Shown here: positions 158-59,400 of the stretch, one piece after another
Layout of the letters: each line of letters begins with the position of its first letter
Numbering within the stretch: position 1 is the stretch's first letter
From: Dioscorea cayenensis subsp. rotundata
Lineage: Eukaryota > Streptophyta > Magnoliopsida > Dioscoreales > Dioscoreaceae
Length of the DNA stretch: 64,000 nucleotides
Assembly (NCBI RefSeq): GCF_009730915.1
Contig: NC_052486.1
Location: 23,217,589 to 23,281,588, forward strand
Direction: 5' to 3'
Notes under the pieces: model-generated
Told to the model about the DNA's origin: nothing
Seen by the model: only the letters and a program-made list of their open reading frames with translations
The model's database searches: none
Position numbers and translations under genes: made by a program

Positions 158-3100
158 ATCACACCAGTCCTGGAAGGGAGTTGTCATATCCAAGGGCCCT
201 GTGGATGAACTAGAGGACGAACTGCAGCAGACGAATTGTGTAATTTGCTTGCTTCTTCTGACTTTCGATTGAATTTTATCTTCCAAAGCAGAACCATTTA
301 TCATTGAAAAACTGTTGTTGCTTCTGCATTTGGCATTGGTATAAATGATACTGCATCACTGTAGCTTGTGTCATATAAAGAAAGTTATAATTATATGAGT
401 TTTCTTCCATCTTGATGAGGAACATTCTCACCATCCTTCTGTATGCATAAAAGAACAACTTGATGGATAATATGTTTTTGTACTGATATTCTTCTGTACA
501 TGCTCATAGTTTGAAACTTAGGTATTATAAACTCATTGATAATGAACTGTTTAACTTGTTGGTTTCACACACTATTGCCTTATCCATTATCCTTTATTTT
601 TCATTTTCCAACTGAGCCATTTTGAGACAATGCTAATGCATTTTTAGATGCAACTTATTTGTCATATTTTGGTTAGTCTTTGTAAGAAGGTGGGTGACTT
701 TCAACTTTCAAAAGGGAAGGAATATGCCTTCTGAGGTTTGAAGGAGGGTATATTAGGTCAATGGGCTTGCTGATGGTACGATGTTCTAAAATCATGATAA
801 CAAATTGTAGTTAGTTGAAAGTCAAAGGAAGAAGTTGCTTGTATGATTGAGCACCTGTGTGTGAAATAATCACTTTGTCTTGTGTTGCATGGTACTTTTA
901 TATGATTGGCTTTTTGTTTCTCACAGTGAGAAAAATTATGGGCTCTGTTTTTCCTTGCTTATTAATTAAATACATTTTTTTAGCATTTTTAGATTGCTTC
1001 CCTCTTCCTTTCATACCATATTTCTCTGCTACGGATTAATTGCTTTTACAGAGAAACTCTGATTCTTACTTGAAACTCTTGCTTATACTTTTTTTAATGC
1101 TTGGTCTTTTTTTGTTTGGTGCAGTATATCAAAATGTCACCTGTTTGTCTCAAGTAAAAACTTGTTTCATTCAAAATACTTATTTCTAGGTGTTTCTTCC
1201 CACATCGATTGGTTCCAAACTGGTTTGGGTGGATTGAGGTTAGTGGGCTTTAGGAGTATCCATGAGTGGACAGGTCTTACACATTTTCATTTGTAAGCAA
1301 AATAATGAACTATCGAAACTCATTTCAGGCTGATGTTAGATATAAACACATATTTCTGCAATTGGTATTGGCTCATTGTCATATATATATACATATTATT
1401 TTTATTTATATTGTAAGCACAGAACCCAGAGCTGTGCTTGTGCCTGCTATGTTTTACTGTATGAGTGCAGAGCCAGCAAGCTGTTTTGAGTTGACAAGTG
1501 TCTTCTACATGTGTTATTCTCTTATCTTTTTTTCCTAATCTATGTTTCTATAGGTTACTCCTCCAGCTGAGAAAGGATACATGATTGTTAATCAGACTAC
1601 CCGTACAAGGGTGGAGTCTGGGACATGCAACGTTTGCTCTGCTCCGTGCTCATCTTGCATGCACATCAATAGAACCACATCCGTCATGGAATCTAATGTG
1701 GAGGGTACTTATTCTATAAATAAGCTTAGGAGGGAAGAAGCTGATTCCTGTTCCTATGATGGTCCAGGGGGTCATCCACTGTATAAGAGCAGAGCTTGTG
1801 ATGATCCACAACATGCGACCAGTGAAACAAGTAATTTATTAAGTGTCAGTTCAAGTCATGATTCGTATTCTGAAAATGCTGAAAGCAAATCTACTTTAAT
1901 TGCAACCAATGATGTGTCTGAAGATGTTGAAATGCATCCAAAGTTGTCAGTTGAAGCAGTTGGAGAAGGTGGTCTCCTTCCAAAAGAGACTAATATCTCT
2001 TCTAGTTGTGTTTTATCCTCAAAGAGCGATCCCATATCTGTCCCACGCCAGGACCCATTTCGAAGTGGAAAGGAAGAGCAGCGTGATCTAGAATGTCATG
2101 GTGACAATATCTCATGTGCCACTGGAGGTCTAGATGCCGCTATTGCAGTCAATGTCTGTAATGTGGATGTGGATGGCAAAGACCCGGTAATTGGTGTGGC
2201 ATCCACCAAGAGTGAAATTGCCGAGGGAATTGAAAGAAAGACTCAGCTAGAAGCTGGTAATCTGTGTCTTGATGATGAAATAAGGGAATGTAAGGTCAAA
2301 GTTGAAGAGCCAAATACCTGCCAAAAAGATATTCTGCAAAAGAAGGATTCTGGTTCTTTTGTAAATGATCAATGTTCCAACAAATCGGATTGTGTAGATC
2401 ATTCTTCCTTGAAACTGAATTCTGCAAAGGTAAGGTATTTCTTATTCCATTTAATTGCAGCTTTCCATCTTAGTGCTCATGGAGAATATCTGGAATAGAG
2501 TTTAAAATTTTGATCCCTAAGTTCAGGTTGAACCTTCTGAATACTTCATGGCGGACATGGAATTGTCAACCAGAGTAGCAGAGGCTTCTGCTAATGTCAA
2601 AGGAGAGAAAACCATCCTACCAGACCAGGAAGACCAGAGAACATGCCAGCTTAAAAGTGTCTCCCCATCAGGAACTCAGAAAAGCAGCTATTCTTGCTTA
2701 GAAACTAGGAATCACAGAGAAAATGATGTCACAGGTGACAAAGACTGTGAAGCAGTTAAGAGTAGCACAATCAAGCAGTCATCCAGGATGTCGAGTACTC
2801 TGGTCGAAGATTCTGAAATTCAGGCACTGGAAAAGCAATCTCAACTGATGTGCATAGGTGAAAATTCTGAGTCAGATATCGAGGATGATGTGAGCACTTA
2901 CTTTATTATTTAACTTGCATATTCTTCAAAATCTTTCGTCACATTTTACTATTTCTGTGCTTCAATTTTATATATATGGAATGTTGGGGGGTTAAGTGAA
3001 TTTTTTCAGTGTATGGGGAATGCTAATTGCAATTATAATTATTTGATCTTCTGTGCCTTCTTTTCATCTGAATTGAGTCCATGGAAAGGTAATCTCTTAT

Positions 3101-6100
3101 AAGTTTTTCAATGCGCTCTTTGTGTTCTGTGTTCTGTTGTTTTATTTTAACACTTTTGACTTGCCATTTTTTTCCCCATATTCTAAGATCATAAGGTTAT
3201 GAAATTTTTAGCCAGCTTTGCAATGGTACTTTTGGTTGGTTGAGGTAGGTTGCTTCTTTATTTGCTTATTGTACTTGGTTCTTAAAGTTGAGCAAGGGTG
3301 GTAATATGAATGGAAAATTATGTTCATTTTCATTTGTAGATTTTATCTACCTTTTTTTTTCTCCTTCCTCTGTAAAGAGAAGGATATATCTTGTTTAATT
3401 AAGCTGTCTAATGCCAGAAAAAATGCTCTTTAACTTCAGTATATGTGACTTAAGTTGGAATTCACAACAGTAATTTAGCTAACATGGGTTGAGTTGATTT
3501 TAAAGTTGACCTCGTCAAAGTTGTAGATTGGTGAATCTAGTTAGTGTGAATATAGAGAAGCATGTTAATTATGCCATTCTGATGTTCATATTGAATAATT
3601 GATTCCTAAATAAAAGTGGGGACATATTTACCTTCATTAGGTTAAACTCTCAGATTCTGAAATTTAAGCCAAATTTTATCTTTGATTATGACATATGACT
3701 TGATTTATTTGGTGAAAGTACCCATGTTCAAGAAATTTTTCAATCAACTCTTGGTTTGTATGAAATTTAACAATGAAACAATTTATGTATTGAGCAAATG
3801 GTACTGTGCTTCCAGCTTAACATTGTGAGTAGCATATCCGCCTATGTGTGTAACTTACCATTGTCATCTATGTGATTGTTATTTTTCACATGCTACCTCT
3901 TTACAGGTGAAAGTTTGTGATATATGTGGTGATGCCGGTCGAGAAGAGTGTCTGGCAGTATGCAGTAAATGCAGTGATGGTGCTGAACACACGTAAGCCC
4001 TGTTACTTTTTATCCACTGCTTTATTATGATTGACATATTTTTTGAATTGGATTGTCTTGGAGGAAATCACATTTCCTTTCTGATGCCAAGCAGTTACTG
4101 CATGCGGATTATGTTGGAGAAAATTCCTGAAGGTGACTGGTTATGTGAAGAATGCAAGCTCAAGGAGGATACTGAAAATGATGAAGTGGATAGAACTGAG
4201 GTGATACAGGAGAAATTAGAAGTTCAGTCCTTGAAAGAAAATATTGTGAGCTCTGAAACTGTTCCCAGCCCCAAGGTTTCTCTTAGGTTGGACTTAGAGG
4301 CGAATGATCAGGAAGCAACAGGAGTTCTTAAGAGAACCCACAGTCAGCATGTTTCTGCCCATAGGCTCACAGATAATACAGAGGTTTCTTCAATTACTGG
4401 CAAAAGATCAGCTGAATCAAATGGTAGTTCCATTGAGACATCTAGTCCGAGGAAAAAAGTTGCCCTGTCATGTGATAGCTCATTGAAGAAGCTGGATTTA
4501 ACTAAAGGAAAGCTGGCCAACATGACATCATCAATTGGAAGTCACTCTGGACATAGTAGTCCTCAGGCATTTGTGAAAGCGCAAATGTCTGGTTCTTACC
4601 CCTCAAAGGTTCAAACCCAAGTTCAGACTCCTCGAGGTTTGTTTGGTTGCTAGTAATGCTTTATTTAATTCATAGAAATTTCTGCTTTGGGTATGGTTTC
4701 ATTAATGTAGATAGTTACTTCTGCTTTCAATCTTCAACTTTCAACAGGTTCTTTGTCGAGATCAATGTCTTTAAATAACTCAGGCATGAAGGGAAAAGTA
4801 AAACAGTTGATTGAAAATATACCTCATAAGACAAAACTCACCAAAGAATTTTCTTCCAAAGACACAAGGAAAGATGGAATTGTCAGAACAGCAACCAAAA
4901 ATGCATCATTCAGAACTATTGGTTCATCCCGGTTAAATGTTGAAACAACAATTAAAACACAGTTTCTTAATTCCCCTAGGTCTGAAGATTCAAAAAGCTT
5001 TAAGCATCCAAAAGACAGAAATCCATTGGAAAAGAAAAATTCTTTTAAGTTGGATCATACCCCTGCGATACCATCAACAAGTAATGCCGTTCCTTCAAAG
5101 GCGGAGCTGAAGGGTGCTCAAATAAGCGGAAAATCAAATAATGTGTCTGAATCAAACATTGTTAGTGTGACTAAAAGATTGGGGGATGCAAATGACTTAG
5201 GTAAGTATATCTTTTTACATCAATAGCTCATAGTATATTTCTCATCTTTGTTTCTTTGCTCCTTAATAATTTTTTTGGTTAATGGGTGTTATTCTTTCAT
5301 ATATTAGGGCACAGTGAGGTGAAGAAACAGCCATTGAATGCACCAAAAGCTTTGGGAAGTTCATCTTTAAGCAGTTTAGGTCAAAAGTCATATAGTATAC
5401 GAAGCGCTAAATCTTCCATTCAACCTGAAACAGTACCACAACATGAAGATAAATCCAAGGACTCTAACTTATTCAGCAGTTCAAGGCAAGCAGGCCCAAG
5501 TGGTGGTCGGGTATTACGCTGTCAAAAATGTAACGAAACAGGTCATGCAACTCAGTTCTGCTCAATTGACAAGCTTCGTGTATCTGCTCTGAAACCATCA
5601 GCTGAACGTAATTTAAAGGAGGCAACTGTCAAAAGTGATAGGTGGAAGGATGCAGTGGAAGCTTTGCTTTCAAAGACTAAGGTGCAGAAGGATGGTAGAT
5701 CACTGGATCATGCTGATTCCACCACAGTAACTCCTAGGTCAAGTCGTGAATCAGGTCCTAAAGACGTTACAACAAGTTCCTCAAACTCTTTTCAAGGAGG
5801 CCTAATTTCTAGGCAAGAGGTTTTTAGAAGCTCTGCCACTTGTCCAGGCCTAATTGGAGCTGCCATTGGTGTAAAGCAACCTGATAATCACCAGGTGGAA
5901 ACCTGCATCCCAGTTGATAGACAGCCGAAGGCGTTGCCTACTGCCTTGAAAGAGTCGACTGGCCTGCCTTCTGTTCCAACCATGACTGATCGATGTTCTG
6001 ATCAAGGACATCCAATGAGAGTTTCTGTTTTTCCGGAGCTCGAGTTCATATGGCAGTATGACACACTTCTCATTTTTCTGTTTATATGGTGTATTTTTGA

Positions 6101-9100
6101 ATTGTGGATTTCTTCCTGGATCAATGAACCGAGTGACGCCTATTATTACTGTATATGTTTGATAAATCTTGTTTTCTTTCTCCTTTTTTCTTTGCAGGGG
6201 TGACTTTGAGGTGCTGAGAGCTGGTAGACTGCTTGAACCATGTAATGGTGTTCAAGCTCATCTGTCAACCTGTGCATCACCCAAAGTCCTTGAAGTTGTG
6301 AATAAGTTTCCTGGCAAAGTTAAATTGGAGGAAGTACCTCGCTCTGGCTCATGGCCATTGCAATTTCAGAGAATCAGCCCTAAAGAGGATAATATCGCTC
6401 TTTTTCTGTTCGCTAGAGATATCGAGAGGTTTGTTGTTGTTGTGGAGTCTTTTCATCACTTCTATATGCAAGCATAACTTGTGTTTCATAACTGTTTTAT
6501 TTGGTACAGTTATGAGAAGAATTATAAAAAGCTGTTGGAAAATATGCTAAAAAATGATTTAGCCCTCAAAGGGTTTATTGATGAGGTTGAGCTTCTGATT
6601 TTCCCATCCGATAAGCTGCCAGAGAACTCCCAGCGTAAGTACAGTATTTCTTCATCTAGTCACAGCCTGTAGTTTTTTTGTATTGTAGTTTTACATTTCC
6701 GAAATGAATTTCACAACGAAGGATCCTCTCTTGTTCTTCAGGTTGGAACAATTTATTTTTTCTCTGGGCTGTATTCAGAGAAAGGAGGATTGATTGCTCA
6801 GATGCATTACCTGGTCCCCAGAGACCTTGTAAATCCAGTTTGCAAGAGGAGCTTTTGGTGCAAGATTCTCCATCGCTACTGGCATCTGATTTTTCCACCT
6901 CCAAGAATATAAATTTGCATGAGTTTCCTTCGACAGATTCATCCAAGTTTGAAATGTTGCCTAAGGCAGGGATCATTGAACACAATACTCAGGTAAATAT
7001 TCCTCCAATTCTATCTTCTGCAATTAATGACAATATTCGCCTTACATGGCTTTTACCATTTGGTCAGATGTCCTCAGAAGCTGTGGTCGAGCCACAGTGT
7101 GAAATCAGTCCTTGTCCTGATTTAGGCAATCAAATAACCACTTTACCTTTGTGCTTAGAACAGAACAGTGGTGTTGCTTCTCCGGTATCTTTTTACTTCT
7201 TCCTATTATTGTTATTTAATTGGGGAGTTTTGTTATTATCTAAATCTCTGACTTGCAAAATTTTTGACTATAGCATACACTTAAACTGCTTTTTAAATGC
7301 TTTGTCCCTTCATTTTTGTTTGTTATGACATTGATTCACTTGTGGTACGTCTATGATGACAAACGCATTATGAGATGGTCTATCTCTTAAGGTTGTCTTT
7401 TGGTTATCAGTAAGTCATCTTAACATATTTGGGATGTTTCGTTTCATCTGTTATATGTAGTAATCAAAAAGCCTTTTGGTCCCTGTTCAAGCGACAAAAT
7501 TTTCTTTTCTATATTGCTCACATTGTCATGAATCTCTCAAATCTTGATTTGTACAAAAGTTGTGAGGATGGAAGCCCTCCAGATGTTATTTCTGTCAATC
7601 CAAGGGAAAGCAGGATAGTTGAACATTTTTTTCCTTCTTTCTACTTTTAATTTCTTGCTTTCATTGCAGACAGTTTTAGGAAAATACATAGGAATATATT
7701 CTTTAGCCTTTGATTTCCATGTTTTCCAATAGAGTTTTTCCCTTCAATAAGTGGAGCATATGTGTTCTCTCTATATTTTTGACAAGAATTTAATGTATAT
7801 ACTTTTATGCAATTAAACTAATAAATTTTCCCATATGAGTATATGTTGTGTGATTCTACTTGAAAATGCCTTCAGCGCTGAACTAGTGCAGAAATTGTAT
7901 GGTTATATGATAAGGTATGGACTCTCTATTGTCCATCTCTCCTAAGCATGACATTTTGGTGATGATGTTGTGATTCTCAGAAACTTGTTGATTGAGTTAT
8001 TAGTGGCTGGAATGCTTGCCCTACTTAAATTCTTTGATATGGGTTGCTCAGACACCAAGTTTTGAGTTGCTCATGCACTGCATTTCATCTCTGTATTTAG
8101 TGGTCCCTATTTTGCTTATGTTTTTGAATGTCTATTTTTAACATCATGACAGCTAAGTCATACCTGTTTTCTTCCAGAAAATATCAGCGCCAGTTCAGGT
8201 TGATAGATGTGCTGAACCTCGAAAAAATGTACAGTCAGTTCTTACCTATTATGTTTGTGTTGTTTACTTTTTTAAGAGAAAGATGCATGTTGCCGTGTTA
8301 TAATTGAGCCAAAATTGCTTTTATCTATCTTTCTTATCTGTTGCCTGCAGAAAATTTTCGGCAATGATGCAATGGGTGGAATAGATGCTGAAACATCAAA
8401 TAATGTACAGAATAGTTTGAATAAGCATGGTGCATTGCCCATTTTGCCTGTTACATGTGCTTCTACTGCTTGCGGAGATGGTTATATTTCTTTGACTTTA
8501 ATATGCAATATTTCATTTTATTTTGACATGTGTGTATTACTCATTAGATTCCTGTATTTTGCATAGGTTGTGAATTCAGTGCAAACCTGGAAAAGCTACA
8601 AGAGACCACAGTGCTAGGTAGTGACCCTCATGATTGTATGACATCAGCGGACAACCTCAGTTGGGAATCAAAGTCTAGTAGGAAACGTGCTCGCTCATGT
8701 TCTGTGGATGTTAACCTTCAGGCTTCTGGTGAAACATTGAAGGTTGTGGATGAAACCATGACAGGGAAGGAGAATATGAATCATGGAGCTGAACATATTG
8801 AGAAAGATCACAAGAAGGCAAAACTTTGTAATGATGATGGGCTTGCTGATTTTCCAGAGCCACAGCGACATAGAGAGATCATCATGGATGAAACAAAAGA
8901 TAACCCTGAAAGCTCGAGAAGTGTTGAGAGGTTTGTCTTTCCGTTTGATTTGAATTCCGTAAGCTGTGAAGAAACAGAAACCGAAACCGAGATTGAAAGG
9001 GTGATACATGTTTTATCTTCGGATGATGAGGACATCGGAGAACCGGTTATCCCAGATCTCGAACTAGCTTTGGGGGGCAGGAAGAAACCTGTGAAAAATG

Positions 9101-9279
9101 AAAGGCAGCCCTTAATTTTCCCTATTGTCAGCAGCAAGATTAATCAACACCAGAGGCCTGCAGTCCGACAGAATGAATATGCGTCAGCATCTCTCTCTTT
9201 ATCTCTTGCAATTCCTAAATCTGAGAATGAAGAAACAGTAGCCGGTGACGTTCAGCAGCCATCATTTTGGCAGCTTTAA
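158..9279 (+). CDS. AIPP2/PAIPP2-like PHD-finger protein (5' end outside window)
   Basis: Nuclear PHD-finger protein of the AIPP2/PAIPP2 family. In Arabidopsis these bind unmethylated H3K4 and work with AIPP3/BDT1 and the phosphatase CPL2 in gene repression. Exons read with phase-consistent GT-AG junctions: 158-239, 1554-2429, 2527-2889, 3907-3992, 4095-4636, 4748-5200, 5308-6055, 6198-6428, 6510-6634, 6742-6992, 7068-7184, 8178-8228, 8351-8480, 8567-9279. The exon at 1554 encodes the family hallmark ESGTCNVCSAPCSSCMH. The PHD is split over 3907-3992 and 4095 onward (CDICGDAGREEC, EHTYC, WLCEEC). A CCHC knuckle CQKCNETGHATQFC lies near 5519-5560. The family's conserved C-terminal domain starts at about 6198 (GDFEVLRAGRL). 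The C-terminus has an LxLxL (EAR-like) run, SLSLSLAIP. From the Met at 1581 the product is about 1552 aa. The exon at 158-239 carries a one-base frame break (see findings), so either translation starts at 1581 or the break is a sequence error. The 240-1553 intron shows no gene. Confidence 0.85.
5519..5560 (+). other. CCHC zinc knuckle inside the PHD protein
   Basis: The exon from 5308 encodes CQKCNETGHATQFC, an exact C-x2-C-x4-H-x4-C retroviral-type zinc knuckle, preceded by a Ser/Lys-rich low-complexity stretch. Knuckles of this type bind single-stranded nucleic acid or protein. Its presence next to a PHD finger is a normal property of this plant family, so it supports the family call rather than marking anything foreign. 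Confidence 0.75.
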
Positions 9280-11667: not shown

Positions 11668-11680
11668 CCCTCTATATATT
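11668..11680 (+). promoter_or_regulatory. Probable TATA box of the BOU-type carrier
   Basis: CTATATATTCAT sits in a C/T-rich context, followed by a CT-rich leader. A likely first non-coding exon ends at about 11764 at a GT (ttcctg|gtaata). The coding ATG is 1.6 kb downstream, so the leader is probably split by a long intron. Confidence 0.5.
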
Positions 11681-16229: not shown

Positions 16230-16869
16230 GCCTCATTTCTCCGCCGGCGCCGCCTCCGCCGCCGCCACCACCGCCGTCTCCGCTACGGAAGCCAGCTTCT
16301 GTAGATTGAGCCTCACAACAGTGTCAGCGAACAATCTCGTATCCTCCTCCGTGTTCCCATCCGGCACATCCACAGCGTACGATTCCAAAACAACGGACCA
16401 GATCTCGCCGGCATCTCCACGGAACTCGGTCACCGTCGTCACTGATCGGTAGTTCCGAAGACGATGCTCTCCGCCAACGATCGAGAAGCCGAAGACGAGG
16501 TTATCATCATCTAGGATATCGAGGCGTTCGGTGCTGGTGCTCGCCGGGAGGCCAGAGATGACGCTGACTTCTCGGAGGCAGCCGACGGTGATCTCATCCG
16601 CCTCGACGGCAACGGAGCAGCTACGGACGAAGTGCTTGTAGACCTGAGGCCGATCGAAGCGACGAAAGCACAGCCCAGACGGCGGAGGCCGGGGAACGAA
16701 CTCGTTGGGTGAGTAGTGAGGAGCAACGCCCAGGGCCTACGCGATACTGATGGTGAGCTTCGATCGTGGGCTTTAGCTGCTCGTACTCCTCCTCCATTAG
16801 GTTTGCCGGAGCTCCGGCAATCTCCATCTCCTCCGATCTCAAGCTCTCTTCTCCGCCACCGCCCTCCAT
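16230..16869 (-). CDS. PYR/PYL/RCAR abscisic acid receptor (one-base frame break)
   Basis: Soluble START-fold ABA receptor that inhibits clade A PP2C phosphatases. It is intronless, as usual for the PYR1/PYL1-3 group, and spans ATG 16869 to TGA 16230. N-terminus MEGGGGEESLRSEEM, then EAHHQYRVGPGRCSSLLTQR, then the ABA-contacting lysine in QVYKHFVRSC, the gate SGLPA, the latch HRL in GGEHRLRNY, and the C-terminal helix DTVVRLNLQKLA, followed by an Ala-rich tail. PYL1/PYL2-like residues place it in the dimeric subfamily. The frame is interrupted once: after SAVWAV there is one base too many in a run of three A on the plus strand (16665-16667), and without it the expected RRFDRPQ follows directly. 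Nothing else is damaged. The conserved frame corresponds to about 212 aa. Either an assembly error or a very young null allele. Confidence 0.85.
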
Positions 16870-18499: not shown

Positions 18500-18567
<68 letters not shown>

Positions 18568-19087
18568 ATAGAGTCATATTTCTTCGGGGTATATTAGTAT
18601 ATGAAATTACAAATATATCATCCCAAATATTATCCTTTAATTTATATTGAGATTGCTATACATAAATATTTAAATAACTTTAAAGTTATATATATTTGTT
18701 ATTGATGTGATTTTATTATATTTTCAGTTATAATCATTTAAAAAAATAATAAATTTATACTTTATAAGTAATATTTAATATTTATAATAAATTTAATAAT
18801 ACAGGATATTTTATAAACATAATAAAAAAACGTTTTTTAAATTTTAATTATTATTTTTCAATTAAAAAAAGCTCTATTTTCATATATATTTTATTCACCA
18901 AACGATACGTTTTGAATTTTCTTCTCTTTTTTTATTATTAATAATAATAAATAAAAAAAATTTGGGTATTGCGACTGTTTTGTTTTTTTCTGTAGATCAC
19001 GCGCGGCGCACGTGCCTCAAGCGTTTGATATCGAGAAGGCTCTCGAGGGTTTTCTCCAAAACCCTCGCTAACCCTCGCCGGCTTCCG
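16870..19087. other. Divergent intergenic region between PYL (-) and RIN13-like (+)
   Basis: A (CT)n tract at 16872-16891 lies immediately upstream of the PYL ATG and is likely in its leader. Beyond 17100 the sequence is very AT-rich, with (TTA)n at 17428-17451 and an (AT)n tract of about 60 bp at 18502-18563. No gene or transposon ends recognised. A tRNA-like half (D-arm and T-arm motifs) near 17035-17092 is discussed under rejected items. Confidence 0.55.
18502..18563. repeat. (AT)n microsatellite
   Basis: About 31 uninterrupted AT units, the longest simple repeat of this type in the window. Likely polymorphic and self-complementary. Similar shorter TA tracts occur at 10676-10694, 33775-33796, 35381-35400, 53470-53491, 54485-54503, 55349-55368, 60649-60664 and 61002-61027. 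Confidence 0.9.
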
Positions 19088-23122: not shown

Positions 23123-26100
23123 ATGGATCTCATCGCGAAGCCTTTGAATCCCAACAAACACCTCAAAGAAGAGTACCATCTCTATTTTGATCTCGTTCTC
23201 TGCTGTAGATTCAGTTCTTTTGCTTCTTTTTCATATGATTTTTACCAGGTTTGTCAGCAATCTCACCGGCTCTTCGATGCTCGAGATCGCCGCCCTCTCC
23301 ACCATCGTTCCCGTAATTCAATCACCTAATTTGTTCATTTTTGCAATTTTTGGATCATCTTTTACTGTTTACAAGCATTTCTCGACTTGTTCTTTGGATT
23401 ATTGTTCAGGCTTTGGTTGTTATCCGGCAATGGAGCAGCTTCGGGCATGCCGAAAGTAAAAGTAATTTTCATTTTTTTAATGAGATTAAGAATTGTTTCA
23501 AGTGATTGGAAATGACTCTACTTGTTTCTTTCTGTTAATTGTAGATTGGAGAAGCTCTTTAACTACTGTCACTATGGATTTCATCTGTGTTGTTCTGCCT
23601 GTTCTGCTTATATTCACTGTAGGTGCATTGCTGTTTGAAATTTATGCTTGTTCATTCAACGTTCAAAAAGTTTATAACTTTGATCTTTTGTGGCAGGTTC
23701 TTGCTGACTGGGTTTATATCTTTGCACTTCTGTTGTTGGTTTTATTGCTTATCTGCATTTTATCAAGAAGGTATTTTGTTCTTAACTAATTGTTTTATTT
23801 ATATTGAATGAGATCATTTTAGATACTGTAGTTCATAAAGAACTCTGCTGTTTTGCAGTATTTAAAACTTCATGCTTGGGTACAGGTCTTCTGCTTCTCA
23901 TTTTAAAGGAAGGATCACAATTTTTGTCCTCTATTAGAGCTACCATTCTCTCATACCGAGTTTCAGTGGTATTTATAGTTGTCGCATGTGCATAGCTTGT
24001 AATTATTTTTTCATCTGAGTTAATGTTGTTTTCTCATAATGAAGGATGGTTCTTATTATAAAATAGGTGGTTGTGACCTGCCTTTGCATATTGGCTGTTG
24101 ACTTCAGAATTTTTCCTCGGCGATATGCTAAGACAGAAACCTATGGTACTGGTCTGGTAAGTACTTCTCATTAGTCATCTATGTTCGTAGGTCTCTTTTT
24201 ATGTACAAAACTAGGTGATCTCATCCTGCTGGCAATAGATCCCAAGTAAAATAAACTAAAGAAAGTAAATAGGATCAGTCGTCCTAGTTGAAGAGCTTCA
24301 TGATATCATTCTATTGCCTTTGCTCTCATTTTAATATTTCACTGAATTGTTGGTGTCAGGTCTTATGCAAAACGCATCAAATGTGATGTATCTTATGAAT
24401 GAATATATGTGTTTTAACAGATGGATCTCGGGGTGGGCTCATTTGTTGTGGCTAATGCATTGGTTTCCAGACAAGCACGTTTTGCCCAGCCAGTGTGAGA
24501 TATGCCTTTCATTCATTTGATTTTAATAGTACAAAACAATTCTTTGCTGAAAATGGTCTTACAGATAAAAGATAAAAACTTCTGATCTTGATTGTGGTAA
24601 TTAATGAATTTCAAAACTGAAAATAGAAATGTGATCTGCTATGCATAGGCAATGTAATCTTTTATTGTGAACAATCTTTTGATTGACTCCCTGATGCCTG
24701 CATAGCCTGCACCATTGTACTAATATTCATGCATTTCAACCTTCCCCCCTTCAGAAGTTTGAAGTCTGCTTTTCGGTCTGTAATTCCACTTGTAGTCCTT
24801 GGTTTTGGCCGGCTCATTTTCACAAAGGGTGCAGATTATCAGGTGTGGCTCTTTCCTTTGTTTTACGTGATGATTCTACAACTGTAAGCACATGAATGTA
24901 AATTCTGAGCAAGTGACTTGCAATATCTGTAGAAGAGGATATCTGGTTGCCATCACCCCCTGCTTGTCAAATGTCTATCAGTACATCTATATGTACATAG
25001 AGGTATGCATATGCACATAGATATATGCATATGCACATTCTAGGCAAGAGTCCCTCAGCTTGACAAACTCTATTTAATCATACTGAAGTTTTCTGCACTG
25101 AAGTTTTTGTTTATCTCTTGCATTTTCAACTGTCTATCAATAATCCATATGCACAGTTTAGGCAAGAGTCCCTCAGCTTGACAAACTCCATTTAGCCATA
25201 CTGAAGTTTTTGCTTGTCATATGTCTATCAGTACATTTATATGTACATAGATATATGCATATGCACATTCTCGGCAAGAGTCTCTCAGCTTGACAAACTC
25301 CATTTAATCATATTGAAGTTTTCTGCACTGAAGTTTTATTTGTCTCTTGCATTTTCAACTGTCTATCAATAATCCATATTCACATTTTAGGCAAGAGTCC
25401 CATAGATTGACAAACTCCATTTAGCCATACTGGAGTTTTCTGCACCGAGTTTTTATTTGCCTCTTTCTTCTTATGAATCTCTTTTTTGTGCATCTTTTTC
25501 TTATCAATGGTTGTAGGTCCATGTGGGAGAATATGGTGTTCATTGGAATTTCTTTTTTACTCTTGCTGGAGTGGTTATGTTAGCATCCATGATTAATATC
25601 CATCCTAAATATTGTGGAATGTTTGGGTTGCTGATACTCGGAGGTAAGTATTCAATTAATGCTTTTAAGGATGTTGTTCAATAACCTAAAGTTGTCATTT
25701 TATTATTGTATTAATCTATTTTTTGTCCAATTTCAGGGTATCAAACATGCTTGAGAAGTGGCTTAAGTGTGTATCTGCTTTCCAATGAAAGGGCCTTGGA
25801 TTATATTAGCCAGAACAAAGAAGGGATTTTTAGTATATTTGGTGAGTATCCTTCTAGAAACATTTTTCATGTTATTGCTTCTTCTAAATGTCTGACCTCA
25901 CACTCACAGTAGAAGGAAAAGTTATGTTGATGAGACTATAGCCCAGCGCAACTCAGTGCCTAGTCCTTCTGTATTTCAATGTTGAAATGCCAAGGGAGCT
26001 ACCTAGATTGTTTATATTATGCTCTACTAGCAACCGCTAAAATAAAAGATGAACTTGTTAATTTCAGTATTCCCTTATTCAATTCTACCGTAGTGGCCCA

Positions 26101-27511
26101 TACATGTGTATTGTGGCTAATTTCTTCAGTTGTGTGGAAATTATTATAACTGTGTGCCAATGAGAGTTGTATTTTCACAAACATGCCAACTTGCTTCCCT
26201 GAATACAAATTCTTATTTTTTCTCATTTTATTCGTGGCCTGTTGCATATTGTTATCTTTAATTTCTGGGGACAAATATTGGAAGTTTTGAACTTTAAATT
26301 AATTTATGCCAGTGAGTTTTGGTAAATGTAAGTTGCTTTTATGTAAAGATTCTCATTTGTAAAGATATTCATTTATATATTCATTTGGGTTTTGTGCTTT
26401 TATTCATTTAGTTAACTTTGTCAATTTAAAGATTAAACTTAGTTACCTACTGACAAGCATACCCCCTCTTGTAAGTTAGGTTTCCTTTTCTTGAATTAGG
26501 CCTTTGATTTTGCAATTTCCAATCACTTGGTGGTTGCAAAACATACTTCTAGGTCCTTCAAATTTCTTTTCTCACAATTTGTGGATATATATATTGCAGG
26601 ATACTGGGGCATGTACCTGCTTGGTGTGAACTTAGGGCACAGTCTATTTTTTGGAAATGTAGCATCAGCTAAGTATGAAAATTTTCAGTGGACAAGACTA
26701 CGAGTTTGCACCTTTTCCTTTCTGATGTGGTAATAGTTTCCTTATGCCGTTTACATTAGAAATTCCTTTTTGTAAGCCTTATGTTGATTTGCATCTGGGC
26801 AGGTTATTGACCCTTGTTCTGAACAATCATGTAGAAAGAGTTTCTCGTCGAATGGTAATTCCTTAAATGAAGTCTTACTGTTGTTTTACAGTTCTTTGAA
26901 TTCGTAAGTAGTAGGTTTTTTTCTTTCGTGCAGTGCAATTTTGCATATGTCACCTTGGTGCTAGCACAGAACTTCCAGGTAAATGAGTAATACCACTTCA
27001 TTCTGGTATCATTAGTTTAAAGAACTATACCAGTCAAACTTGCCGTGATGCTATATTTATGTCAACATGATGGGTACTCTAAAAATTTTATCCAAATGAA
27101 GAACTTGGAAATTCTTGTTTACTTTAAACAGTTTGAATGTGTTATGGAGCTTATGATCAGAAACCTTTTTCAGGTTCTATCAATTCTCATGCTTTCTGAT
27201 TTTATTCCTGGGAGAAAACCTTTAGAGCTTGAAGCAGCATTCAATCAGAATTTACTAGGGTCATTTCTCTTGGTGAGTTAAATACTTTTTTTTTTCTCTG
27301 TTTCTTTTCATGTGTGAACACCTTATAGCCTATGATTTTAACCATCTTTTTCTAAGTGCAGGCGAACATATTAACCGGAGTGGTGAACTTATATGTTGAT
27401 ACCCTTTCAGCATCTTCGATCATAGCTCTGGGTATCTTGTTAGGATATGCCTTTGCTTTGGCTGCTATAGTTTGCATTCTCTGGTTTTCCCGCGTGAAGC
27501 TTGCGCTTTAG
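23123..27511 (+). CDS. PIGW: PIGW/GWT1-type glucosaminyl-PI inositol acyltransferase (one-base frame break)
   Basis: ER multipass membrane enzyme that acylates the inositol of GlcN-PI, an early step in GPI-anchor synthesis. Sixteen exons: 23123-23172, 23249-23312, 23410-23455, 23545-23618, 23697-23770, 23886-23968, 24067-24156, 24421-24494, 24755-24842, 25517-25643, 25737-25841, 26600-26729, 26803-26854, 26934-26978, 27174-27272, 27362-27511. Diagnostic blocks: [18 protein letters not shown] with [95 protein letters not shown]. About a dozen hydrophobic helices are distributed along roughly 449 aa. Exon 23886-23968 is 83 nt where 82 is needed: after SSASHFKGR the frame must step past one extra base (about 23905-23915) to continue as [17 protein letters not shown]. 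Every other junction is in phase. The intron at 24843-25516 contains a nested duplication. Confidence 0.9.
24961..25450. repeat. Nested tandem duplication, 250-bp period, in a PIGW intron
   Basis: Copy A starts at 24961 and copy B at 25211, both with TGCTTGTCA(A/T)ATGTCTATC. Inside each copy the motif GGCAAGAGTCYCTCAGCTTG occurs in two half-units (near 25041, 25160, 25273 and 25390; the last is slightly diverged), so a roughly 120-bp half-unit was duplicated first and the pair later. Rich in TATGCATATGCACAT palindromes. Confidence 0.8.
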
Positions 27512-29842: not shown

Positions 29843-31526
29843 ATGTCACTTGAAGCTCTTCCCACTTCCAATGACTTCCCCAACTTCCTCATCTACGACA
29901 CCATTTCTGCTTCTCCAACAAATTTTTTCTTCCCAAACAACAACAACATCAACAACATCAACAATAACAACAACAGTGTGCTTAGTTTTTCCGGTGAGTT
30001 TGTATCAACACAAACCTCACCGGATATCAAACCAGGACAACAAAGAAGAAAAAGAAGGCGAAAAGCCCAAGAGTTCCAAGAACAAAGAAGAAGCCGAAAC
30101 CCAACGAATGACTCACATTGCCGTCGAACGCAACCGCCGCCGTCAAATGAACGAGCATCTCTCCGTTCTCCGCTCTCTCATGCCCGATTGCTATATTCAA
30201 AGGGTATACCTACATATATTATTCAATCTATATATATATATAAGTCTAGATTTCTCATTCATCTTCTTTCTTCTGCCTGATTTTTGACACAGGGAGACCA
30301 AGCATCAATTGTTGGAGGAGCAATAGATTTTGTGAAAGAACTTGAACAACTGCTTCAATCACTTGAAGCTCAAAAAAGAAAAGTTTTACAAGAACAAGAA
30401 TTGGAAGAAAGCAAGAACAAATCTGAACTAGATCTGCCACCATTTTCAGACTTCTTCACTTACCCTCAGTACATAAGATTCCATGCTCCTCGTGACTACT
30501 TTCCCTCGCCGCCGTCGCCGGAGACTCATCATCATCATCGGACTCCGGCATTGGCCGACATTGAGGTCACTCTAATCGAATCACATGCTAATTTGCGCAT
30601 CTTGTCACCAAGAAGACCTCGCCAACTTGTCAAACTTGTTGCTGGTCTTCAAGCTCTCAGTCTCACCATTCTCCATCTCAATGTCACTTCTTTGGATTTC
30701 ATGGTTCTCTACTCTCTCAGTACAAAGGTACGTATTTTTATACGTATTTTTTTTGGGTTTAATTTCTCATATTATTATTATTATTATTATTAGAGAGGGT
30801 GGATTTCCCAATGTAAGTATGTTTGTCTGTGTGATCAGTGAGAAGAATCAATGTCTTCTTGGTAATTGAGAAAAAAGTGTCAGATATTCCAGTGATTAGC
30901 TTTTTAAGTAAGAGTGATTAGTGTTATTTAATTAAAGTGATTAAGTATGAGTGGGAAATTTTGGAATTTTCTTGGAAGTTGGAATTCCAAGGGATTGGAA
31001 TCTCTTATTAGACTATCCAATCATATGAGAACTATGATTGGACTCTTGGTCTATTGAGTGTGAGCCCTTTTTTTGGTTTTGGGTTTGGATTCAATCAAAA
31101 TAGACCAAAATGTGAGTTTGGTTACACCACCATTCAAGTCTTATCCCTTCTTTTGAGAACTTTTTTTTTTTAAAAAAAAAAATCTTATTTATTTATTTAT
31201 TTCTTCTTTTGTGATGGGCATCATCATACTTTATGCCCCATCACTGATTTGACATAAGGTCAAAGCTCAATTTTTTTTTTCTCATAAATTCTTGGGAATA
31301 AATTCTCTCAATTAAATTAGCAAAAATCAACTTGTAATTTAATTTAATTAAGAAGATGAGAGATGGGATTTGATTTGATTTTTTTAATTGATTCAATTGA
31401 AATCAATTTGGGGATTTGATTCAGGTGGAGGAGGGATGTGTCTTGACCACGATAGAGGAAATCGCAGCCGCGGTGCACCATTTGCTCTCTCTTATTGAAG
31501 CAGTCACACCCGCTCATAGCCAATGA
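29843..31526 (+). CDS. Group Ia bHLH transcription factor, bHLH94/96-like (one-base frame break)
   Basis: Nuclear basic helix-loop-helix factor of the group containing SPCH, MUTE and FAMA; residues around the domain match the bHLH94/96/70 side rather than the stomatal trio. Exons 29843-30203, 30293-30727 and 31425-31526. N-terminus [16 protein letters not shown] with an Asn-rich stretch, basic region [20 protein letters not shown] with the H-E-R residues for E-box binding, then [20 protein letters not shown] and [19 protein letters not shown]. An ACT-like C-terminal domain begins at [17 protein letters not shown] and ends [18 protein letters not shown]. Exon 1 is 361 nt where 360 is needed: the N-terminal frame and the basic-region frame differ by one extra base near 30060-30069 (cgaaaagccc). 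The conserved frames sum to about 298 aa. The intron 30728-31424 holds nothing recognisable. Confidence 0.85.
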
Positions 31527-31539
31527 GAGTTTGTGTGGT

Positions 31540-33363: not shown

Positions 33364-33369
<6 letters not shown>

Positions 33370-33405
<36 letters not shown>

Positions 33406-42086: not shown

Positions 42087-43086
42087 NNNNNNNNNNNNNN
42101 NNNNNNNNNNNNNNNNNNNNNNNNNNNNNNNNNNNNNNNNNNNNNNNNNNNNNNNNNNNNNNNNNNNNNNNNNNNNNNNNNNNNNNNNNNNNNNNNNNNN
42201 NNNNNNNNNNNNNNNNNNNNNNNNNNNNNNNNNNNNNNNNNNNNNNNNNNNNNNNNNNNNNNNNNNNNNNNNNNNNNNNNNNNNNNNNNNNNNNNNNNNN
42301 NNNNNNNNNNNNNNNNNNNNNNNNNNNNNNNNNNNNNNNNNNNNNNNNNNNNNNNNNNNNNNNNNNNNNNNNNNNNNNNNNNNNNNNNNNNNNNNNNNNN
42401 NNNNNNNNNNNNNNNNNNNNNNNNNNNNNNNNNNNNNNNNNNNNNNNNNNNNNNNNNNNNNNNNNNNNNNNNNNNNNNNNNNNNNNNNNNNNNNNNNNNN
42501 NNNNNNNNNNNNNNNNNNNNNNNNNNNNNNNNNNNNNNNNNNNNNNNNNNNNNNNNNNNNNNNNNNNNNNNNNNNNNNNNNNNNNNNNNNNNNNNNNNNN
42601 NNNNNNNNNNNNNNNNNNNNNNNNNNNNNNNNNNNNNNNNNNNNNNNNNNNNNNNNNNNNNNNNNNNNNNNNNNNNNNNNNNNNNNNNNNNNNNNNNNNN
42701 NNNNNNNNNNNNNNNNNNNNNNNNNNNNNNNNNNNNNNNNNNNNNNNNNNNNNNNNNNNNNNNNNNNNNNNNNNNNNNNNNNNNNNNNNNNNNNNNNNNN
42801 NNNNNNNNNNNNNNNNNNNNNNNNNNNNNNNNNNNNNNNNNNNNNNNNNNNNNNNNNNNNNNNNNNNNNNNNNNNNNNNNNNNNNNNNNNNNNNNNNNNN
42901 NNNNNNNNNNNNNNNNNNNNNNNNNNNNNNNNNNNNNNNNNNNNNNNNNNNNNNNNNNNNNNNNNNNNNNNNNNNNNNNNNNNNNNNNNNNNNNNNNNNN
43001 NNNNNNNNNNNNNNNNNNNNNNNNNNNNNNNNNNNNNNNNNNNNNNNNNNNNNNNNNNNNNNNNNNNNNNNNNNNNNNNNNNNNNN
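42087..43086. other. Assembly gap of exactly 1000 N
   Basis: Unknown bases. The round length suggests a placeholder of arbitrary size rather than a measured distance. Open frames across it are artefacts. Confidence 1.
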
Positions 43087-51736: not shown

Positions 51737-51758
51737 TGAATACGAAGGTGAAGGTCTC

Positions 51759-51794
51759 TAGGGTTTTGGAAACGAAGGTGCTGGTCTAGGGTTT
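51759..51794 (-). promoter_or_regulatory. Two telo-boxes in the UTP13 leader
   Basis: Read toward the gene, AAACCCTAGA occurs twice, at 51766-51757 and 51794-51785, 20 to 60 bp before the ATG. The telo-box is the known element of plant ribosomal-protein and ribosome-biogenesis promoters, which fits the gene's role. Confidence 0.65.
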
Positions 51795-53809
51795 TTGGAG
51801 CGAAAGAGCTTCGATTTGGACAGGGGTTTTATGGAGGAATTTTATTATTAGCCCCCTGAAAGTTCTTAGTTTTAGTTATATGTCCCTCGCTTTGTGAAAC
51901 TTTCATGTTTCCCCCTCTTTAAATTTTAAGTGGGATATTATACGATTATCTCATAAAAAAAACATTATTATTATTATTATTATTTTTATTTTTATTTTTT
52001 TAACTCAATCTCTACTCCTATAGCAGCATTTTTCTTTTTCTGTTCCCCTGGGACTTCGGCTAAGGCTTTTTAGGATTGTCTCTGTTTGTTCTCTCGCTCT
52101 ATTTTTATTCTTATTTTTGTGGTGGTGATTTTTGTAGTTCAGTTTCTCTGATTGTTTAGGTTATGGGGGTTTTTTCTTAATTTTTATGGTTCCTTTGTGT
52201 TGTTTTTGTCGGAGTCACCTCTGGTGAGCTGGCTATTGGTGGTCCTTGTCTGGTTATTACTTTTTTGTTTAATGATATTTTGAGTGATTTATCCGTTTTT
52301 TTTAAAAAAAAAAACTTCGACTTTGTTGAGATATAATTTTTTTTTTCATGCTCCTTATATCAGTTGTGTTTTGCCTCTAATTTTTTTTTATTACCGTCCA
52401 CATTTAATAGATACTATGTAATACTCTTTATTTTTTTTTTTACCCTTGAAACACTTGTTTGGTCTTTTAATATTTGTGGTTTATTTATTTTATAAAAAAA
52501 AACTTTTTGTTTTTAAAAACCCCTCAAATAATTAATTTTGTATTTCTGTATTTATTCATTGTTATTTATTTTGTGATTTAGTAGTATTTTATTACAACAA
52601 ATAAATAATATTTAATTAAAAATACTTAGAAAACCAAATAACAATAAACATTACTTAAAAAATGCATACCATTCAAAATACAAAGAAAATAACACATATT
52701 ATATATGATTACAACATCAAATACACTCACACAAACATAATATATCAAATATAAGTTTTATGTGAATGAACTACATTTAAGTACCGAAAGCCTAAAACTC
52801 AAAATGATTGATAATTACTAAATTTAACACATTGAAACCCAAACGCAATAACCTCAAAAAAGTTTGAAAACAAAACATGTACCTAATCCTTTTACAGCAT
52901 TCTCAATCACCACATTTTTTTTCTTCCAAAGTTTGATATAATTCTTTGAATCAAAAGAGAAACCACAAGAACAGTAGTAGTAGTTTCATTTTGATAGACT
53001 TTAATTAATTGAGTAGTGTAAGTCAACATATTCTTTTAAAGAGTTGGTAACTTTGTTGTTTTTTTTTATATTTCATGGTTTACCTACTCATATCATGATA
53101 TGATTTCCCTTGTTGGACAATATTTGGATTGTTGTGATAAGAGAGAGATTCTTTGTTTTGTGATTGATCTTCCATTCAAGGAAGCAATGACATGATGATA
53201 AAGAGATTTCATTTAAAACCATTAATCTTTGTTTATGGGAATAAGAAAGATTAAACAAGAACCATTAATTGAATATTACATTTTAAATATATATTTACAA
53301 ACTAACTCTCTTACTTGCAAAGATAGTTATATGCTTAAACTTAAACCAAGACATGCATGCAAAGTCAAAAGGTAACATTAAGAAATAAGTCATACCTAAC
53401 GAGAAACTAATTATATGACTTTGTGATTAATTAATAAACACAAGTGTAACAAAATGTAGCTTTTCGTTATATATATATATATATATATATTAAACAATAA
53501 TGATCATCAAAAGTCTCAACTAACTTTTGATATAAGAATTCATAATTCACATAAAATAATATAGCAATGAACATGATGACTGAAAACTCAATCCATAAAG
53601 ATTTTAATGCATCACTTTACATCAAAACATTATTCAATGAAGTTTTCTAACAGTACAAATTTAATTAGTAATCTTTGATCTTCTCTTCTTTCTCTACCAT
53701 TTGTCAGACCATGATATTTGGCTGAAAACAAAGAAGAAGACAGAAAGAAAAACATTAATCAATGAGATGCTATTTAAAAAAATTGAAAGATTTAACCAAA
53801 GTAAATTTC
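51795..53809. other. Intergenic region between UTP13 and MYB
   Basis: AT-rich. 52010-52318 looks like the 3' tail of a LINE (separate entry). Beyond it lie long A/T runs and a (TA)n tract at 53470-53491. No gene seen. Confidence 0.5.
52010..52318 (+). mobile_element. Possible LINE 3' tail
   Basis: T- and G-rich 3'-UTR-like sequence ending in GAGTGATTTATCCG, then a T run and a run of ten or more A. The LINE fragment at 62910-63407 ends in the closely similar GTGATTTATCCACTTTATTC plus A run on its own sense strand, so both probably come from related L1-type elements. No target duplication could be found and the left limit is a guess. Confidence 0.35.
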
Positions 53810-54804
53810 TTACTCTAAAATGTTTTTCCAAGAAAAATCAATGTCTAGATCATCAAGACTTGGCTCATCTGACGATGAATTTCGCTGAAATATAACTTGA
53901 GTTAATTGGCTCTCTCATTTGATCTCCGGTGAACATCCCCGGTGAAGTTGGGAGTACTAATGAAGGCGAAGAATTGTTCATCGGAGTAACAAAGGAGTTG
54001 AATAATGCATGATTACTACAATCACCAAAAGAGGTACTATTACTTGCATCGATTTCTTGTGTTTGAAGATGAAAGTTTGGATTGGCACAAGTTTGATAAT
54101 GGTTGGAAAGTTGAGGCAAGCTCAAATCTTGCATGAGGACATGATTTTGAATGAATGAAGAATCCAAGGAATTCAAGAAAGTTAATGTTTGGAGTAGAAG
54201 AACTAGAAGACATTAATTGAACCAAACTTTGGAGAAGTTGATATCTAAGTGTGTTCAAGTTGCTGACATTAATATTAGCACTAGCAGTGATCAAATTAGG
54301 AATACTAGCAAGTATGTCAAGATCACTTCTTCGACGATGAGTCATGGGATCAATTCCATTGAGCATGAGCTTCTTTTTCAGATGTGTGTTCCAATAGTTC
54401 TTGATTTCATTATCAGTTCTTCCTTTTAATCTCCTTGCAATTGCAGACCACCTACAACATATAAATACATATATCAATATTGAGATATATATATATATAT
54501 ATAGTAATTGATTTCAAGATAAAGAGAAAAGTTTATATTACTTGTTTCCAAGAAGCGAATGAAGTTGAATTATGAGCTGTTCTTCATCTTCAGTGAACTT
54601 CCCGCGCTTGATATCGGGACGGAGATAGTTAATCCACCGGAGTCTGCAGCTCTTACCACAACGGTTTAGGCCGGCATTCTTCGGGAGGTGCCTCCAATTA
54701 TCATGGCCATTCTTTAGAATATACTCGACGAGCTTCTTGTCTTCCTCCGGCGTCCAAGGGCCTTTCTTGATGCCAAAATCATCGCAACATGGAGACCTTC
54801 CCAT
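53810..54804 (-). CDS. R2R3-MYB transcription factor (two one-base frame breaks in the C-terminal part)
   Basis: Exons 54804-54542 and 54451-53810. The N-terminus [22 protein letters not shown] and the R2 and R3 repeats are intact: R2 has the three Trp ([24 protein letters not shown]), R3 starts with Phe in place of the first Trp (GKFTEDEEQ) and continues [20 protein letters not shown] and [11 protein letters not shown]. The linker [20 protein letters not shown] resembles subgroup 24/11-type MYBs (MYB53/92/93, MYB41/102), several of which control suberin and root or stress responses; the subgroup is tentative. Exon 2 is two bases longer than its frames allow: one extra base near 54168-54176 (between NINFL and [16 protein letters not shown]) and one near 53893-53902 (before [19 protein letters not shown]). 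The conserved frames sum to about 300 aa. The DNA-binding part is unaffected, so even as written the gene would encode a DNA-binding protein with a changed tail. Confidence 0.85.
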
Positions 54805-54857
54805 TGCTCTTGATTTGAGCTTGAAATGCACATAAGAACTTCAACTCTCTCTAGTGA

Positions 54858-54867
54858 GTTTTATAGT
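54858..54867 (-). promoter_or_regulatory. Probable TATA box of the MYB gene
   Basis: ACTATAAAAC on the minus strand, 54-63 bp before the ATG at 54804, followed by a CT-rich leader. Confidence 0.55.
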
Positions 54868-56402
54868 GTGTTTGAGTTTGACTCTTGTCTCAAATATGTT
54901 TTATGTTTTCATTATCTTCATATGATTGTATTTTTCTTTTCATGCATGCAACTACGTATATACATATAATTGTAAGTATTTTTCTTTTTTCTAGTGATCA
55001 CTTCAATTCAAACATGAAAGAAATTTAAGACAAGATTAATTAAACACTTGTTAGGGTTGTTAATAGCGTGTCTATGGTGCTAAATTGCTTAAGCATCAAG
55101 ATTAAGAGTTGTTAATTGATAATAAGGTCCCACATGCATGGCATCAAAGATTTTTACTAGTGATACAAGCAATAGTGCAACCACCCTCTCCTAATTCCAT
55201 CACTGCATGTTACTTTTTGTTTAGGGTTAGGGTTAGGGTTTCATATATATGACTTAGTGGGACCTCTCCTATCAATTTGGACCTTGTTGTCAAAGTTCAT
55301 GATCTCATGGTGCTACAAGTTGCAGATAATTCAATGAGGAACTAATTATATATATATATATATATATAAAGGTTATTATGTTATTGTTTATCATTTGTTT
55401 CGACTTCGTTTAGTGTTTAATTATAATGAAATTAGACCATGTGCTTGTGACCAAGCAAATTTTTGGTTATCTCCTCCACCTCATTTCATATTGATTAATT
55501 TTTCATGACCATAATAAAATAGTATATGTGAGACAATCAAGTTTGATTGTCGACGAAGAATAATTTATCGAAAAATCGATTAAAAAAATTGATTAATTGA
55601 TCAAGTCATATTAAAATTTATTTGTTCTTAGAATTGTCAGTTTGATGAGGCGGCTTTGATGTGAGACTGGAACTTGTTGACAGAAATAGCAGGATGTTTC
55701 TTTCAGATATTAGTAAACGTTGTCAAAGATGATTTTAGTATTTGCAGTAACTTTCTGTCGATGATTTCTGTGATAGTTTCGATCAATAAACATACAATTG
55801 ACAGAAAAAAAAATATTTGCTTACATCATGATCTAAATGTATAGGAAGTTACCAAAAAACTAAATTATTGATAACTTCTCAAACTTTGCTATCTTTTAAA
55901 GACTTTAGACTTCAATTATGCAAGAAGTTATGCTTTGCTAATTGAGTTTCAAGTAGAATTTATCATGAAATTTAATTCTGATGGTAAAACATGATAGTCA
56001 TTGTTAACTTTTACCTTTTTCATTTGCGAATTCGATCCCGGCAAAGCAACTACTGAAATTTATCATGTTCGTTTTAGAAGAAATTAAAAAGTTTCAATGT
56101 CTGACAGAGTTATCTTTCTGATTACTTGTTGATTCAATTTGTTACATCACTTTACCAACTAAACCTGATGTAATAGCATCCAATTTTGTCAAATTTTCAC
56201 AATGTCAAGTCTGTGGTTTATCATGCAGAAAGAATCTGATGTATGATTGTTATTTTAACAACAAACACAAATCGGTTTCTTACGACTCAATAGATCGATC
56301 GCACTTACAATTTATTTGCATTCAAGCATACTTATGTATATATATAGATGTAATTAAATACGCACATTTTACTGAATTGTCGTATTGTTATACAGTAAAT
56401 TG
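54868..56402. other. Intergenic region between MYB and ABCB2
   Basis: Promoter side of the MYB gene and 3' flank of ABCB2. Contains a short telomere-like tract at 55219-55241 and (TA)n at 55349-55368. No gene seen. Confidence 0.5.
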
Positions 56403-59400
56403 CTACCTCTGCTGTTGTTGCTGCTGCTGCAAACTGATGAGCTTGAAATAAGCTCCATCTGTGTTCTCAACCAAAGTTGAATGATTGCCTTGTTCAATGA
56501 TCTTGCCATCTTGCAACACCGAAATCACATCGGCATTTTGAATAGTTGACAATCGATGCGCAACCATGACTGTAGTCCGGTTCTTCATAACTCTATCAAG
56601 AGCCTGCTGAACAATGCGCTCTGACTCAACGTCGAGTGCGCTTGTAGCTTCATCAAGCAACAAGATAGCCGGGTTTTTTATGATCGCTCTAGCAATTGCG
56701 ACACGCTGCTTCTGCCCACCGGAGAGTTGAACTCCTCTCTCCCCCACTTTAGTCGAGAAACCTTCAGGTAATGCACTAATGAATGAATGAGCATTTGCAA
56801 GCTTGGCTGCTTCAATGATCTCCGTCTCGGTTGCTCCGTCCTTACCGTATCGAATGTTTTCATATATTGAGGTCGCAAACAATGCCGGTTCTTGTTGAAC
56901 TAACCCAATATGCTTCCTCAGTGACTTTAACTTCATCTTCTTGATATCTTTCCCTATATAAACGTATATATAAATATAACAGTTTAATCAGAATAAATGA
57001 TTGAATGAGGAACAAATGCAGATTACCATCAATTAAAACTTTTCCAGTAGTTGGATCGTAGAATCGGAGAATGAGAGAAAGAACAGAGCTCTTTCCTGAA
57101 CCACTAGCACCAACCAAAGCCATGGATTTGCCTGATTTAACTTTAAGATTGAAATCCTTGAAGATTAAAATGTCAGGCCTTGAAGGATAACTGAATTCAA
57201 CTCCTCTCATCTCAATAACACCTTCAATTCTCCCAACATCCTCACCATCATCACTAACAATCTCACTCTTCCTATCCAACACTTCAAACACTGAACTTGC
57301 CATTTGATTCCCTTTAATTAGATCAGGAGCCATTGCCAAGGTCTCTCCCATGGCCAATGCAGTCACAATCATCACCATGAATGTCTTCATAACTGACTTT
57401 GAAACTTGCCAATTCTTTTGCCATCAACACTGATCCATACCACAATGCCAAAGCATATGAGGAGAAGAGGAAGAATTGAGATACACCGTAAAATATCCCA
57501 GCCGCTTGTCCTCGCCGGAACGAATGCTTCGATGGCTCCTCGAGCTCGCCCGCATATAAATCAATCACCTTCTTCTCCGAACAGAATGCCGCCACCGTTC
57601 TTATATTACTTACCGCCTCCGTCGCTAGCATGTTCGCCTTCAAGTATGTCTTGCTCAGATTCCCTCCATATCCTTGCATGAATAGTTTCTACAACAGATT
57701 AAAAATAACATCAAATTACATGACATTCATCTCTGATCAAATGAATTTATAACACATACATACATAGATACATACCTCACTGATATGGCCACTGACCATC
57801 AATGGATACGTAGCCAACATGACAAGAGTTAGTCTCCAATTCAAGATGAATGAGATGATGAATGAGGTTGCAATCATTCCTACATTTTGAAGGAGAATTG
57901 TTGATCTATCGGCAACAATGGTCTTAAGAAGAGTCGCATCGGTCTCGAGACGAGAAGAAAGTATTCCACTTGCGTTGTTCATATCATCGAAAAATCCGAT
58001 TTCATTCTTCAATATAGCTGCGAACATCCTTTCTCTGACTCTGAGTGTGAGTCTCTCACCCATGATACCAAAATTAAGATGTTCAATGGTGTAAAACATT
58101 ACTGCAACGACTGCACCACCACAGAAAAGAATTGCTATCTTTTTAATTTCCCTCTGTGTGGTTTCCCAATCCATGTAGTATGAAACCAGAGCTTGTGTTA
58201 TTCCAAGTGCAAACAATGGCATTTGAGAGCCAGCCACAAAGGCACCTAAAGTGCCGAAAAGACCGAAAATCCAATCTGGGCCAACCATTGAGTATAGTCT
58301 CTTCAAAGAAACATACTTCATCTTCACTTCTTCACTTGTTTCAGCAATGTATCTGCTAACAGAGTCTTTATCTGATCGAAAACTAGCACCGAAACTCCCT
58401 GCTCTACTCGATAATTCTCTCGAATACTTCATGCTAATTGTCATCAACAAAGAAACAGTTTTCAGTTATATTTATTCAATAATTTATGCATATATGTAAG
58501 TACATATTCTGTTTTGAAGTCACCTCAAAGGCCTGCTCATGCTGATACTGTCAGAAGGCGCAGCTCGATGAACGGAAGCTGCCTCTTGAAGCTGAACAAG
58601 TGAAGCATAAGATGATCGAGGATTGGACATTAGTTGCTCATGTGTACCAGTTTCTATTATCTTTCCACTTTGAACAACAGCGATCATGTCTGCATTCCTT
58701 ATTGTCGATAATCTATGAGCAATCATGACGGTTGTTCGGCCGACCATGACTCTGTCAAGTGCCTCTTGAACACTCTTCTCAGATTCTGCATCGAGTGCGC
58801 TAGTCGCCTCATCAAGCAGGAGAATTGTCGGGTTTTTAAGTATTGCTCTTGCTATTGCAATGCGTTGTTTTTGCCCTCCAGATAACTGAACTCCTCGCTC
58901 GCCAACCTGAAACATGTAAAGCTCTATATTTAGTAGGAGAGTTCATTTTTCATTCCTCTGCCTAATCAAAGGTCAAGTTTCAATTCATTTTTACCTGAGT
59001 CTCATACCGATCAGGGAGATTATTGATGAAAGTTATTGCCTCTGAAAGCTTGGCGGCACGGGTAATTTCATCAAGAGTTGCATCATCCTTGCCATAGAGA
59101 ATGTTCTCCCGAATAGTCGTCGCAAAAAGAGCAGGCTCCTGATTAACCAACCCCACTTGCTGCCTCAACCACTTGAGCTCAAGGTCCTTAATGTTGTGTC
59201 CATCTAAGAGTATCGATCCGAAGAGAGGCTCGTAGAACCTTTCAATAAGTGAGATGACGGTGCTCTTCCCCGAGCCGCTACCGCCTACAAGTGCGACAAT
59301 CTTTCCTGATGGAATTTCAAGATTGAGGCCATTGAAGATGATAACATCAGGACGAGAAGGATAACTGAACTTGACATTGCGGAACTGAATATGGCCATTG

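Follow-up and report, generated by a model that had tools for sequence, protein, structure and literature searches.

Surplus single bases in conserved genes of a Dioscorea assembly point to probable insertion-leaning consensus errors

Several conserved genes that lie close together in one genome appear to be broken by one extra base each, which raises the question of whether the damage arose in the plant or in the assembly. The stretch concerned is 64,000 nucleotides of plant nuclear DNA from Dioscorea cayenensis subsp. rotundata (C16:23217589-23281588 of the assembly; hereafter the window), for which an initial annotation had claimed seven surplus bases in six genes. We built 11 gene models covering ~18.0 kb of coding sequence in the window and searched the whole assembly (584,211,761 bases, 2249 contigs) for sister copies of these genes and for gene families. 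Surplus bases were confirmed in the deposited sequence at six of the seven sites, distributed over five genes: PHD, PYL, bHLH, MYB (two sites) and ABCB (Table 1). The surplus is exactly one base at the PHD, PYL, bHLH and ABCB sites, and is defined modulo 3 at the two MYB sites. Sister copies in the same genome keep one open frame across all six sites, and local DNA alignment between window and sister gave a lone 1-base gap in each of PHD, ABCB and bHLH. The seventh claimed site, in PIGW, is unproven, as an in-frame splice exists there.

Table 1. Features of the window, with the position of each frame change and the comparison on which it is based.
Feature	Position	Strand	Frame change	Basis
PHD-finger protein exon	158..239	+	one +1 near 196-200	L028 in one frame; 1-base gap; further exons to 9279
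PYL/PYR1-type abscisic acid receptor gene, single exon	16233..16869	-	one +1 within 16665-16668	PDB 5ujv on both sides; C577 sister copy
PIGW/GWT1 gene	23123..27511	+	+1 at 23905-23915 unproven; in-phase alternative intron 23771-23937	GWT1 profile, splice candidates
bHLH gene	29843..30727	+	one +1 near 30060-30070	L022 in one frame; HLH Pfam match past the change; 1-base gap
N gap, exactly 1000 N	42087-43086	.		read off the sequence; between the tetraspanin and UTP13 genes
R2R3-MYB gene	53812..54804	-	two +1 (modulo 3), within about 54040-54215 and 53865-53917	L009 in one frame
ABCB-type transporter gene	56403..61484	-	one +1 at about 57398-57400	PDB 8woi on both sides; L006; 1-base gap

Two of the sites were placed against solved structures. 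In PYL, residue 61 of 5ujv corresponds to 16669-16671 and residue 63 to 16662-16664, leaving four bases for one residue; the sister copy on C577 carries both pieces in one frame with three bases at the joint. Local DNA alignment for PYL shows a 1-base gap together with others of 9, 3 and 3 bases. Similarly, comparison of the ABCB gene with ABCB19 (8woi) revealed that the first piece stops at residue 946 (57401-57403) and that the second runs from residue 948 at 57396, so that four bases again stand for one residue. In L006, the ABCB sister on C11, one frame spans the site; the match for the 13 residues before it is weak when taken alone (E 0.09).

The other four changes were located by means of sister copies. 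In PHD, ITPVLEGSCRIQGPVDE lies in a single frame in the sister L028, and the window switches frame before VDE. The window bHLH gene, which is FAMA / bHLH Ia-like, is matched by L022 (C4:1.55 Mb) in one frame from MSLEAL through RRKRRRRTRSCKNKEEAENQRM and up to the basic region; in the window, the frame switches between these two halves. For MYB, the single open frame of the sister L009 (C4:1.83 Mb) corresponds to three successive frames of the window, in order: the DNA-binding part, a middle segment with NSFVTP and a tail ending in FSWKDILE. One frame in the sister against three in the window means that there are two MYB changes, each +1 modulo 3. Their intervals were set by stops, which do not permit finer placement. 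No stop interrupts the middle MYB frame for 88 codons, a length reached in 0.25% of simulated background, and its codon likelihood is mildly positive; codon likelihood by frame was uninformative for PHD and bHLH.

Doubt about PIGW is confined to exon 4, the exons on either side of it being in phase. Splicing out the alternative intron yields an unbroken protein that needs no extra base and scores 419 bits against the GWT1 profile. By hand count, this unshifted splice fills the 19 profile positions 89-107 with 2 residues, and the acceptor chosen in the initial annotation, combined with the shift, supplies 19 residues over the same positions. Loop length thus favours a surplus base at this site, though loops vary.

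The rest of the window agrees with what had been claimed for it, namely that the other junctions stay in phase without further stops and that five neighbouring genes are free of shifts. In the gene models, BOU, RIN13-like, ATL, tetraspanin, UTP13 and the remaining exons of PHD, ABCB and PIGW are all in phase, with the UTP13 and RIN13-like joints judged by eye. Neither deletions nor further stops were seen in the window gene models, where homologs were compared for parts of ABCB and PHD only (PHD against its C4 copy), and a small deletion elsewhere in these models could have been missed. The 1000-N run is probably a scaffolding gap. The last exon of the bHLH gene, expected past the donor at 30727, was not recognisable by eye in 30727-31000; the usual C-terminal end may be missing or may lie further off.

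Some frame calls were discarded. A codon-usage Viterbi model with splice sites and equal +1 and -1 penalties was too weak, and produced false introns in PHD, PIGW, bHLH, MYB and ABCB; with the same penalties, the ABCB break is masked behind an invented intron. In PYL it called an insertion (near 16640) as well as a deletion (near 16315), which solved homologs did not bear out, and an insertion that it placed near 19061 in the RIN13-like gene lies upstream of the likely start. A text search of the literature for the family motifs gave no match.

Inverted sister copies of the window bHLH, PYL and PHD genes were found at C4:1.54-1.62 Mb, and sister copies of MYB and ABCB at C11:4.19-4.22 Mb, a pattern that an old duplication would leave. 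The PHD copy on C4 matches the window exon by exon and in one frame, except for its last exon, which is split over two frames with 85 bases between them. The C4 copy of PYL (L003, C4:1576651-1580137) has three frame changes, and the colinear copy on C577 (L002) is unbroken. Measured against C577, two of these changes add one base each and the third removes two; insertion is therefore not the sole kind of change. Over the 28 kb in which C577 and C4 are colinear, the share of mismatches in 2-kb steps varies between 0.2% and 13%. Such a jumpy rate suits patchy correction of noisy sequence, and the divergence could also be real haplotype structure. Clean one-base gaps between C4 and C577 numbered 178 in one direction and 176 in the other, and the comparison was set aside as a test of insertion against deletion, being symmetric and unable to tell which copy is wrong.

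We then compared the window with its own assembly through a whole-assembly search for three families, GRAS, HSP70 and KCS (PF08392), in which the joints between adjacent pieces were judged from match coordinates. The 63 GRAS matches fell into 47 loci, and 28 of these were full-length, single and stop-free. Of the sixteen joints obtained, two keep the frame and two span intron-sized gaps (one +1, one -1). The remaining 12 have short gaps; they are spread over 9 of the 47 loci and consist of 11 +1 changes and a single -1. Ten of the 12 were inspected as sequence; nine proved to be +1, with segments on both sides that were recognised by eye as GRAS, and the tenth was a -1 in a diverged stretch. 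Eleven events in 49.8 kb of GRAS domain, set against 6 in 18.0 kb of window coding sequence, give an expectation of 4.0 events for the coding length of the window. The probability of 6 or more is then 0.21, indicating that the window does not stand out within its assembly.

HSP70 contributed only four usable joints because of its introns; three were +1, and two of the four lay in a stop-rich locus (73 of 152 candidates scored). The HSP70 loci without stops supplied two +1 joints, with an excess of 1 and 34 bases. In KCS, +1 was found in one of five clean joints, each of which lies in a locus with at least one stop in the match. When the three families were pooled, 15 of 21 clean joints were +1 (P = 0.039 if both signs were equally likely). 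Without the loci that have three or more stops, the share was 11 of 14 (P = 0.029, by hand); this removed GRAS C15:1311369 (2 joints), HSP70 C18 (2), KCS C2:23.51 Mb (2) and KCS C1469:46073 (1). GRAS and the window show a clear lean towards +1, which was not seen in KCS. The claim that the change is always +1 describes all six confirmed window sites, but it does not carry over to the genome, where 6 of the 21 family joints, including most of those in KCS, are -1.

Very probably, the surplus bases are insertion-leaning errors left in the consensus of a draft assembly, which is the best explanation of them. Noisy long reads that were incompletely corrected would leave one-base insertions in the consensus, the surplus bases would be absent from the plant itself, and annotation pipelines would be expected to truncate the proteins or to invent introns. 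The initial annotation had likewise preferred insertion-leaning assembly error to six pseudogenes, and its preference is supported by the sister copies, by the GRAS rate and by the deletion bias reported for Arabidopsis in an excerpt of PMC8145854. For four Arabidopsis groups under heat or warming, that excerpt lists 25, 17, 42 and 22 deletions and 4, 3, 11 and 13 insertions, respectively; the small indels were mostly of 1-3 bases, and insertions made up 31 of 137. At this share, six insertions out of six would occur with P = 0.00013, a figure that serves as a guide only, coming from another species under heat or warming. To the same degree, as a guide, the +1 excess of the window runs counter to the bias of natural indels. 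In addition, a portion of PMC9010478 gives 595 conserved gene families as missing from D. rotundata and 53 from D. alata, which would fit gene-breaking errors in D. rotundata.

Genuine pseudogenes, with insertions that exist in the plant and are perhaps tolerated through duplicate copies, are an unlikely alternative in our judgement, although all five genes have sister copies, so that losing one copy could be tolerated, and PYL offers a broken copy on C4 next to an unbroken one on C577. The pieces that flank the shifts are free of stops and conserved on both sides, and six +1 changes out of six stand against the deletion-biased natural indels in the excerpt of PMC8145854. Furthermore, short-gap breaks are also present in the GRAS loci assembly-wide, and the unbroken sister copies, together with the compatible GRAS break rate, argue against a local cluster of pseudogenes. 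What the window shares with unitary pseudogenes is a frameshift in a conserved gene; it differs from them in that no further decay was seen in the gene models, in being all +1 and in having similar breaks across the assembly. It also resembles the residual indel errors that fragment genes in long-read assemblies, the subject of PMC12007338, with single-base indels, conserved protein on both flanks and many genes affected, whereas the window and GRAS lean to insertion.

We give very little credence to the idea that the gene models were misread and that, at some sites, an intron takes out the disputed segment and leaves nothing surplus. An intron does work for PIGW, and the splice finder also returned shift-free models for PHD, bHLH, MYB and ABCB. 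In PHD, PYL, bHLH, MYB and ABCB, however, it would cut conserved protein, since the residues at issue are present in the sister copies; in PIGW the shortfall against the GWT1 profile counts against it. Slimmer still is the chance that the bases are real and that insertion-biased mutation, or tolerance of +1 changes, disrupts a noticeable fraction of the conserved genes in this lineage. Programmed +1 frameshifting by the ribosome is scarcely conceivable: it accords with the uniform direction of the confirmed window changes, but the window sites have no sequence in common (contexts compared by eye), the sister copies lack the shift, and we know of no programmed +1 frameshifting in plant nuclear genes.

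Assembly error is an ordinary phenomenon, yet gene catalogues are misled by it. If the present rates hold, coding sequence would contain about one spurious break per 3 kb by the window figure, or per 4.5 kb by the GRAS figure, and a considerable fraction of the long proteins in this assembly would be truncated, hormone receptors, transporters and transcription factors among them. Better correction, or a check against transcripts, would be needed before this genome is used to study gene loss, gene families or candidate knock-outs. As a minor observation, TTTCG occurs on the coding strand at no fewer than 3 of 15 +1 sites (9 GRAS and 6 window; by eye), namely L038, L039 and window 16660-16670, and may be a systematic context near CpG.
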